Positions 44,301 to 47,300 of a stretch of 64,000 bases of DNA are shown one piece after another. The first letter of the stretch is position 1, and each line of letters begins with the position of its first letter. Source of the stretch: Haliclystus octoradiatus (lineage: Eukaryota; Cnidaria; Staurozoa; Stauromedusae; Haliclystidae). The translations under genes and the position numbers were made by a program. The notes beneath the pieces were generated by a model. That model was not told the DNA's origin. It saw only the letters and a program-made list of their open reading frames with translations, and ran no database searches. Location: contig OU744449.1 in assembly GCA_916610825.1 (NCBI GenBank), positions 3,050,001-3,114,000 on the forward strand, given 5' to 3'.

Positions 44301-47300
44301 CTTGTAAATAGCAGAGCGGTAAATAATAATAGAGTCAAGAAAGACACACCATTTTTGCTGTTACTTGAAGTTTCACGTTGTTAAACGATCATCAGACATA
44401 ATACAATATTATTCATTGTACAATACATTACAATACAGTACAATACAATACAGTACAGTACAGTACAATACAATACAATACAGTACAATACAATACAGTA
44501 CAATACAATACAGTACAATACAATACAGTACAGTACAATACAATACAGTACAATACAATACAGTACAATACAATACATTGTATTCTGTCTGATGATCGTT
44601 TAACAACGTGAAACTTCAAGTAACAGCAAAAATGGTGTGTCTTTCTTGACTCTATTATTATTATATATATCATATATATATAATATGTATCATATAATAA
44701 AATATAATAAAAGGAGTCAAAGACTACACATTCATAATTGTTACTAATAGTTTCATGCTTACGCAATCATCAGACAAATAAACGTTTATTTGTCTGATGA
44801 TTGCGTAAGCATGAAACTATTACCGGTAGTAACAATTATGAATGTGTAGTCTTTGACTCCTTTTATTATATTTTATTATATTTTATTTTATTATATTTAG
44901 CTCTATCAAATGATATCGAGCACTATTTTTTGCTATTAGATAATATCTAATAATATGTATCATATGTATCATATATATATCATAATTAATGAACGAAAAA
45001 ATCAGACATTCATATTTGCATTTATGGCATTGAGTACTATTGAAACAGCAAAGAGAACATAATTACCTTGATATTACTATATATAGATTTGTTTATAATA
45101 TTTATTTTGATTTAAATGACAGTGACAGTCATTTATCTCAAATTTAATAATATTTATTTTGATGCCAAAGTGTTTTGACAATCGGTAACATTGTTCCGTT
45201 CCTACTTACCATCTCTAATACTAATGCTGTTTGTACGAATATTATTTAGTACATTAGTAGAACAAGTTTTTTCCACTGAAATTATTGTGATAGGTTGCTG
45301 CTTAAATTCTTTAATAGATTTCCCTGGCTACGAATTACTTTTGAAAATCTTCGTAAAAATTGTTTTTGTAAAAAAGGTTTACAATGGTAATTTCCTTTGC
45401 CACCAAATCTCAATATGATGATAATTGTCGATTGAGGTTTGGTAACAAGTTATTTTGTTTTAAAAAGCACAAGAGTTTATAGTGACCACCAGCATTTGGA
45501 TTATTATTTGTGCTGCTATTTTGGAAGAAACAAGACTTGTCTACTTAAAACAAGATTACTTGAATGATCTGGCCTCAGAGTGCAAAACCTGGCTATTTAA
45601 AAACATTGAAAATAGGCTAAAGTATGGCCTCAGATTGCAAACTTACCCAAGAATGTGTCTTCTCATTTCTTGCAATTTTTCTCAAAAGTTTCCAACATTG
45701 CTCTAACAGTCCTAACCCCCCAACGAAAGTATAATGCATTTTGATTGAAAACTTTTTAATATCTTGTATTTTTATATTAGGGTTACTCTGGTGAACCTGG
45801 AGAAGAAGGTCGACTTGGCGATAGAGGAGGACCTGTAAGTTATAATTTGAATTTTTCCTGTTGACATTTTCTTGAATCCTTTGGTAGTCTAACCAACTAT
45901 GACTTCAACATGCAATATTATTTGGATCAACAAAGGTCATTTTTACAGGTACTGTTAACATTTGTATTTCTTTATTCTAGGGTTTAGCTGGACCTAGTGG
46001 TCCACCTGGTCCTTCTGGTAAAGCAGGTAGAGATGGTTCAAAGGGAGAAACAGGACGTCGTGGACCTTTTGGAATACGAGGTGGACCAGTAAGTTTCTTC
46101 AAGATATTTATTAAACTTTAGGAAAATTAAGAAGCACACATGCAGTTTGATAGTAGATCTTAATCAATTCTTGTTTTATACATAGGGTCTACCAGGAAGC
46201 GCAGGTATTTCAGGTACAAAAGGTATGAAAGGTGATTCCGGAAGTATTGGTTTCAAAGGAACTAAAGGAGATTCTGGTCGCAATGGAGAAGATGTATGTT
46301 TGTAAATCATTTTAATTTTTATATATTTATTACATACCTTTTCTGTTTGATTTCTTCTAGTTACATATTTTTGTTTGATTATAGGGTGATACTGGATTAA
46401 GTGGTACTAAAGGCGCTGGTGGACCACAGGTAAACTAAATTATATTGTTTGTATGTACAGTATGCATGTATGTATGTATGTATGTATGTATGTATGTTTG
46501 TTTCACATTTCAGTTATAAAATTAGATAATGAAAGATGCTAGATGTTGAAACTTTTCATTTTTATTTTTGCAAGGGTGAGAATGGAACTGTTGGATATCC
46601 TGGGCCTTCTGGACCACAAGGATCTGCGGTAAGCAAACAGACTTCCCAATCATAAATTTGTTGGTTACAATATAAAATGTGTATTTTTGAAACTTGAAAA
46701 AGGATATTATATGAAAAGCTCTGATGATTTTGAAGGTTCAAACAAATAACACATAATATTATTATAAAAGATAATATTTGGTTGTGAAATAAAAAACTAT
46801 TTATATAAAATTATTTTATATCCAAATGTATCACATCCGATCTTTGTGAAAATATAATACACAAAACATGCTAAGTAAGGCAAGAGCAATCAAAGCAGAA
46901 CACGCAAGTCCCTCCTACCTGTCTTACATTTGCTGAAGTGTATGAAGGAAACCAGTTGAAGCGATCCATTACATGACATTCTGAGTAGACATGTTGTCTT
47001 GAGAACTTTCTCAAAAACATAATTTTTTTCACACGTAACGGTATCGCAACTTATTATTTCTTAGTTTTCACCTCAAATTGTTACCTATTCTAACATGTTC
47101 ATGGCTGCGTCAATGCATGAATATAAAAACTGGATGTAGAAGTTGATAATAAAATAACAGATTTACAACAAATATGTGAATTTATGGTGTGGTTTGTTTT
47201 TTATGATTTTATCGATTGTATTATAGGGTGAAATTGGTGAATCCGGTATTGAAGGACCATCTGGACCAACTGGACCACGTGGCCAAGAAGGAACTCGTGG

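Follow-up and report, generated by a model that had tools for sequence, protein, structure and literature searches.

Candidate type I hammerhead ribozymes in a collagen intron of Haliclystus octoradiatus, lying in short palindromic insertions of a probable Penelope-like element

We analyzed a 64,000-nucleotide stretch of the Haliclystus octoradiatus genome (contig OU744449.1, positions 3,050,001 to 3,114,000; hereafter the window), in which a collagen gene, identified by its Gly-X-Y exons and by a Pfam Collagen match to a later exon on the same strand, contains an intron with several related insertions (Table 1). Insertions A and B are two pLTR insertions of a Penelope-like element (PLE) in an AT-rich part of this intron, and they adjoin a third piece, D. 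The target-site duplication is exact over 16 bp in B and over 17 bp in the insertion at another genomic locus (L022), whereas the 17-bp candidate of A is AT-rich and therefore weaker; for most other A-type inserts no boundary could be set because they lie in (AT)n. The two arms of B are identical at 46/75 positions without gaps. D matches two parts of copy C at 80% and 86%; both share one extension module, C is a palindrome, and D seems to have lost one arm. C starts near the cleavage site of its family, which is a single case. A separate repeat of about 180-190 bp is also dispersed through the window, with copies in inverted and in direct orientation (4052-4771, with repeats at 8422, 12656 and 27170); no sequence likeness to the hammerhead elements was noticed in it.

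Table 1. Insertions and candidate hammerhead motifs in the window
Feature	Position	Strand	Predicted cut	Basis or remark
Collagen-gene intron holding the insertions	44124..45780	+		Flanking exons Gly-X-Y, GT..AG borders
Candidate target-site duplication of A, left copy (TATATATATCATATATA)	44222..44238	.		AT-rich, weak alone
Insertion A: PLE-derived head-to-head pLTR pair without ORF	44239..44661	.		Same ends in other genome loci
Minus-strand pLTR arm of A, extension ('tail', about 44239-44321) at 3' end	44239..44407	-		Identical copies; position relative to the L023 frame
Hammerhead A' (mirror of A)	44358..44399	-	After base 44362, minus strand	Descriptor, model
Spacer of A, mostly TACAA/TACAG microsatellite	44408..44576	.		
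Inverted pLTR arm of A, without extension	44577..44661	+		74/75 identical to the other arm
Hammerhead A	44585..44626	+	After A44622	Core, descriptor, model (62 bits; A itself in the model's alignment)
Candidate target-site duplication of A, right copy	44662..44678	.		
Target-site duplication of B, left copy (ATAATATGTATCATAT)	44680..44695	.		
Insertion B: PLE-derived head-to-head pLTR pair, extension at the high end (minus-strand orientation)	44696..44949	.		
Hammerhead B' (mirror of B)	44738..44777	-	After base 44742, minus strand	Descriptor, model (B' in its alignment)
Hammerhead B	44790..44835	+	After A44831	Descriptor, model (B in its alignment)
Target-site duplication of B, right copy	44950..44965	.		
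Related insertion D: piece with pLTR/extension from a different PLE family, lacking a hammerhead core	44966..45106	-		
Related insertion C: palindromic piece of D's family, without hammerhead core	36443..36641	+		
Fifth hammerhead, with helices II and III decayed but helix I (CTGT/ACAG) intact	48384..48432	-		Covariance model

The plus-strand motifs in A and B, which the earlier note had described as complete type I hammerheads, are present as described. Copy A reads CTGT-CTGATGA-T-CGTT-TAAC-AACG-T-GAA-ACT-TCA-AGT-A-ACAG and copy B reads TTGT-CTGATGA-T-TGC-GTAA-GCA-T-GAA-ACTATT-ACC-GGTAGT-A-ACAA. In the usual numbering of the hammerhead core, CUGAUGA, GAA, the A15.1-U16.1 pair and NUH follow one another in the correct order, with helix I open, in A and B and also in their mirror copies A' and B'; the latter exist on the minus strand because A and B each sit in an inverted repeat. 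A and B therefore look like real type I hammerheads by sequence, for which cleavage is predicted. B has six extra bases in helix III compared with B', and this longer form (CCGGTAGTAACAATTATGAATG) was found at one other place in the genome; the two arms of B may come from two different RNAs or from one.

A strict descriptor (core, at least 3 bp in each of helices I, II and III, and NUH) gave five rows at four places in the window, namely A, B in two readings, A' and B'. The same descriptor gave 19 matches in total over 2000 dinucleotide-shuffled windows, spread over 18 shuffles, which upholds the claim that a chance match is unlikely. The looser pattern CTGATGA..GAAAC is likewise enriched: the window has five occurrences, whereas 100 shuffles gave 0.31 on average and never as many as five. 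We also built a covariance model, for which A, B and B' were aligned with 13 motifs taken from other parts of the genome. Searching the window with it recovered the four descriptor places, where A, B and B' match by construction, and a fifth motif (41.2 bits, E 7e-10) that is absent from the model's alignment. This fifth hammerhead is of the same kind and lies about 3.5 kb downstream of A and B. A further pattern match at 22589 was rejected as a hammerhead (13.3 bits, E 0.21). The earlier note had seen neither A' and B' nor their palindromes nor the fifth copy.

Scanning with the Rfam hammerhead families, the check suggested in the earlier note, gave no match, so that half of the refuting condition named there came true. 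No family of Rfam 15 reached its gathering score over the whole window, and with E allowed up to 10 no hammerhead family appeared over 44200-45000. Everything that scored below E = 0.01 in that region was a miRNA-hairpin family picking up the palindromes. Yet Rfam at gathering score found no hammerhead in eight other loci with such motifs either, and the pattern is hugely enriched across the genome. Nor did Rfam report a rare form in which helix II has G-C at its base, helix III reads ACACGTGT and the cleavage site is GTC (L026 2577-2627 and L010 5475-5525, both on the minus strand).

Both insertions have many relatives in the 262-Mb genome of the window. The left stretch of A (44281-44395) is 100% identical over 115 bases at 27 listed places, the window's own included, among 40 scored of 806 candidates, and the right arm of B reaches 86-100% identity in 40 scored of 998 candidates. 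The pattern CTGATGA N10-15 GAAAC occurs 5460 times in the genome compared with 164 times for the reversed pattern, and CTGATGAT N8-13 TGAAACT occurs 3629 times compared with six. Among the first 100 places listed for the former pattern, all on contig C1, helix II has U.U at its base in 74, U-A in 12, A.A in 6, A-U in 3, G-C in 1 and other combinations in 4. The T-T opposition, which the earlier note had called unusual and a possible mark of a subfamily or of reduced activity, thus marks the commonest form here, and it has a precedent in the axolotl hammerhead HHR_Amex2, as described in a passage of PMC7229834.

Listed neighbours within 150 bp (n = 19) were divergent, with the ribozymes pointing outward, in 16 cases and in the same direction in three, with none convergent; within 500 bp the numbers were 20, 12 and 3. 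We fetched 20 stretches at A-type places and 20 at B-type places, and took L045-L063 from the CTGATGA N10-15 GAAAC listing. Together with the window, these loci contain 34 head-to-head pairs within 450 bp, a number that gives no rate because L045-L063 were mostly picked for being pairs. The arms are identical at 70 or more of 75 positions without gaps in 19 of the 34 pairs; the other 15 have lower identity, partly from insertions or deletions, and at least two of these join different families (L032, L063). A third palindromic family (L048, L052) has helix II CACC/GGTG and 1032 candidates in the genome; L048 and L052 share the same difference between their arms and carry the extension on opposite arms. 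Viral contigs, from which records of the window's genome were possibly left out, were scanned for the same arrangement and none was found.

The length of the interior between A arms varies widely among the fetched loci, and some interiors contain long open frames. The kinship with PLEs, to which the earlier note had pointed for the minimal helix III, is supported here. PLE-like frames adjoin the hammerhead and tail of the A family in L023, L009 and L021, and related frames adjoin those of the B family in L030, L037, L040 and L041. The layout is clearest in L023, which contains in order an inverted 5'-truncated copy, a direct pLTR with a hammerhead (+1501), the extension (1573-1607), a frame with reverse-transcriptase motifs (pieces 1689-2312 and 2313-3836, split by one in-frame stop) and a second direct pLTR with a hammerhead (+3970); the inverted hammerhead lies at -860, adjoining an inverted frame piece. 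Direct pLTRs flanking an open frame, an additional inverted pLTR, an inverted arm without extension as in A, and target-site duplications as in B and L022 are all what would be expected of a PLE. The DNA-transposon (MITE) origin that the palindromes had first suggested was dropped, because the same arms flank reverse-transcriptase frames.

The protein evidence comes from fold and from motifs read by eye. For the 507-residue piece of the L023 frame, 4248 of the 7994 scored candidates are relatives with an E of 1e-10 or less, and for the predicted structure of a 59%-identical relative (P0003; mean pLDDT 74) the best-ranked solved structures were mostly reverse transcriptases (best E 3.9e-6, TM 0.2-0.3 by query length). 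These included DRT, G2L4, retron, DGR, group II intron and telomerase enzymes, with some viral RNA polymerases among the 50 shown. The frame product is thus predicted to have a reverse-transcriptase fold, and reverse-transcriptase motifs can be read in it by eye. A Y..YIG..R..H..E..N pattern, similar to the GIY-YIG signature, is kept at the C-terminal part in most of 21 aligned proteins. Pfam and NCBIfam searches matched no reverse-transcriptase or GIY-YIG model to the protein (for GIY-YIG, Pfam gave nothing up to E 10 with the two pieces of L023 and nothing up to E 1 with eight relatives), and a sequence/profile search of solved structures gave one match at E 0.045, taken as meaningless. With the PLE label resting on these motifs, the fold and the layout, we put the probability of the whole PLE explanation, in which A and B are short non-coding PLE insertions forming palindromes with one outward hammerhead per strand, at roughly 0.86.

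We then asked how far the helices covary. The compensating differences between copies A and B that the earlier note had pointed out are real, with pairing kept, but they recur across many families of the genome. In the 16 motifs of the model, 90.1% of cells are paired, compared with at most 59.1% when the partners are slid, and 24 cells are changed on both sides, compared with 7.9 +/- 2.4 in shuffled data (0/500 shuffles reach 24). Two of five measures on these motifs were not clearly above shuffles: pairs changed on both sides (6 compared with 4.3; 47/500 shuffles reach 6) and further pair types (12 compared with 11.5; 253/500 reach 12). For a larger set, 142 motif occurrences from the loci (minus three duplicates) and the window were reduced to 60 distinct motifs, and the 50 with a helix III of 8-9 nt were used for pair counts, the other ten being left out. 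Helix III has a standard fourth pair in 48 of these 50 (U-A 29, A-U 13, C-G 5, U-G 1), compared with a mean of 26.7 and a maximum of 35 in 1000 shuffles, and in 12 of 14 when each distinct helix III is counted once. Pairs I-1 (47, shuffle maximum 44), I-4 (46, maximum 40) and II-2 (44, maximum 42) also exceed all 1000 shuffles, as II-4 barely does (45, maximum 44); pairs I-2, I-3 and II-3 do not, nor does II-1, which is paired in 9/50 motifs. All three helices thus show compensating changes in the 16- and 50-motif counts, which we read as support and not as probabilities because related sequences inflate them. In 45 of the 50 motifs, helix III has 9 nt and the fourth pair flanks a single nucleotide; such a pair should close no hairpin, yet can form between two molecules. 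The covariation of this pair around one nucleotide therefore points, by sequence, to cleavage as dimers.

The sequences, the layout, the target-site duplications, the pattern counts and the covariation are observed directly; a route by nicking and cDNA joining and a role for the hammerheads are our inference. The PLE protein would nick AT-rich DNA on both strands, and pLTR RNA would be copied from each nick, or the cDNA would fold back on itself, so that two 5'-truncated cDNAs could end up joined head to head. The product would be a palindrome in which each strand bears one hammerhead that points outward, together with a duplication of about 16 bp. Passages of the literature propose self-priming for rotifer Penelope palindromes (PMC3846280) and describe cutting and extension of both strands for an Anolis PLE (PMC11167929), and the palindromes seen here are compatible with either route. 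The hammerheads would serve the full-length element, whose RNA would carry two of them about 2.47 kb apart. Two hammerheads, from one PLE transcript or from two, could pair through the self-complementary helix III (4 bp, one mismatch, 4 bp) and would then cut after GUA or GUH, releasing unit-length RNA that in family A would start with ACAGC. We looked for pLTR copies ending exactly at the ribozyme cleavage site, as a sign of a cleaved-RNA template. The fetched loci contain 77 tails of the two families when up to 2 mismatches are allowed, and 74 of these have GTA directly upstream (14 bases of context), so that no such sign is seen there.

Within the collagen intron, the ribozymes are expected to do little. 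A transcript through A or B would meet the antisense arm first and could form a long hairpin, for which a nearest-neighbour model gives -157 kcal/mol for the A transcript and -132 kcal/mol for the B transcript. The monomer hammerhead folds are predicted at +0.4 (A), -2.9 (B) and +0.3 kcal/mol (B'), and none is the minimum-energy fold; the A monomer, for instance, has another fold at -3.3 kcal/mol. Each palindrome's own hairpin should thus outcompete the ribozyme in this model, and poor self-cleavage of the collagen pre-mRNA in cis is expected for that reason. The same hairpins weigh against the idea that A and B have been domesticated to regulate the collagen gene, in the manner of the hammerheads conserved in amniote introns. 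Both plus-strand copies do lie in the sense direction of the intron, and intronic type I hammerheads with proposed splicing roles are covered in a section of a review (PMC6155905), but the same sequences occur at many other places in the genome, with the left stretch of A fully identical elsewhere, and we consider domestication very improbable. We see no sign that A or B has a function in the collagen gene; both are most likely passengers. What had been described as the ribozyme pair of a collagen intron keeps its intronic location, but consists of two insertions of pLTRs from a high-copy PLE, both of them palindromes that carry a second ribozyme on the opposite strand.

Alternatively, the short palindromes may be a MITE-like family of their own, in which inverted pLTR pairs spread as complete units with PLE enzymes acting in trans and the ribozyme working mainly between molecules. 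In the L048 family, all 40 scored places (of 1032 candidates) match in both orientations, as palindromes do, and the arm difference shared by L048 and L052 at separate sites would fit the copying of one unit. But the extension on opposite arms of these two means that they are not simple copies of one unit, palindromes formed anew from pLTR RNA at each insertion would look similar, and the high arm identity in 19/34 pairs is expected from such fresh formation; we regard this alternative as unlikely, albeit the strongest of the rivals. Much less probable is that the motifs are retrozymes, the hammerheads of small tandem retroelements that spread as circular RNA. HHR_Amex2, which according to a passage of PMC7229834 lies in an axolotl retrozyme, is of type I and has U-U where helix II begins, and hammerhead-like tandem arrays with units of about 53 bp (L044) and about 260 bp (L027) exist in the genome. 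However, A and B are inverted pairs that carry the PLE extension; they lack the tandem monomers, about 150-450 bp between hammerheads, of a retrozyme. Ribozymes identical to theirs also flank PLE-like frames, by which a retrozyme origin of A and B is largely refuted.

In L044 (G000:C1:566900-568900), some units of the tandem array have CTGATGA intact and others have CTTATGA, and helix I is weak. Repeats of about 260 bp with CTGATGA-AGGCTAATGGCCA-GAAACATGTA occur at L027 1844-2624, L006 1832-2091 and L041 904-1165, and singly in L029 and L043; this sequence is possibly a variant hammerhead whose helix II has A.A at its base and whose helix I is not clear, and the repeat in L027, L006 and L041 might be retrozyme-like. 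The least probable explanation of all is chance or a hairpin artefact, in which the hammerhead likeness would be a by-product of a DNA palindrome family. Rfam does score the A/B stretch as miRNA-like hairpins and not as a hammerhead, but the rarity of descriptor matches in shuffled windows, the near absence of the reversed pattern from the genome, and covariation within one arm, which a two-arm palindrome leaves unexplained, refute the artefact as far as sequence allows.

As short PLE insertions, A and B resemble several published systems, which we compared through excerpts. The PLE pLTR hammerheads of Cervera & de la Pena 2014 and Lunse et al. 2017, as summarized in parts of PMC7761336 and PMC6155905, are also of type I with a weak helix III, no evident loop-loop contact, a location in direct pLTRs and a proposed cutting as dimers; the 2020 review (PMC7761336) considers dimer cutting possible and calls the role unknown. 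Published PLE hammerheads are said there to be usually without non-conserved helix III bases, whereas helix III here is mostly an 8-9-nt self-complementary sequence with a covarying fourth pair, and U.U opens helix II in most copies. The two original papers may already describe such forms, and because these are known to us through citing papers the novelty of the helix III form cannot be claimed. The Penelope of Adineta vaga (excerpts of PMC3846280) likewise has an ORF between two direct pLTRs, an adjoining inverted pLTR, an optional extension at one end, a palindromic head-to-head junction and short target-site duplications. Those duplications are 8-10 bp in the cases described there, compared with 16-17 bp here, the copy number here is far higher, and the word hammerhead does not occur in that paper.

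Like the elements analyzed here, the Poseidon PLE of Anolis carolinensis, PAc (excerpts of PMC11167929), has a hammerhead near the border of pLTR and ORF, AT-rich targets and a 'tail' defined by insertion ends, and it shows the cutting and extension of both strands that are proposed here. The hammerhead cut of PAc lies 26 bp inside the ORF, whereas the 5' hammerhead core of L023 starts 188 bp before the open frame; the Anolis hammerhead is described as cutting only with its protein present, and its mutants as leaving insertion in vitro unaffected. HHR_Amex2, which according to PMC7229834 is more active as a dimer, resembles the dimer form proposed here in this respect as well as in its U-U mismatch, but belongs to a non-coding retrozyme and not to a PLE pLTR. 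PLE hammerheads, their dimeric action, inverted pLTRs with palindromes and the U-U at the base of helix II (in the axolotl) are thus already in print in the parts of the literature cited above. Among the papers listed on hammerheads in connection with MITEs, inverted repeats, palindromes or head-to-head copies, we recognized none that describes short PLE palindromes bearing one ribozyme per strand.

The PLE hammerheads of this animal perhaps carry the signature of a new subfamily. More tentatively, and with some doubt on our part, they may form a subfamily built to act as a dimer (mostly U.U in helix II, a self-complementary helix III of 8-12 nt), with the palindromic pLTR pairs as a high-copy non-autonomous family of their own that spreads the ribozyme on both strands. 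A genome in which matching places number in the thousands and belong to many families allows the dimer model to be tested by covariation, and not on a few constructs; it also suggests that such ribozymes form an entire class overlooked by the Rfam models.
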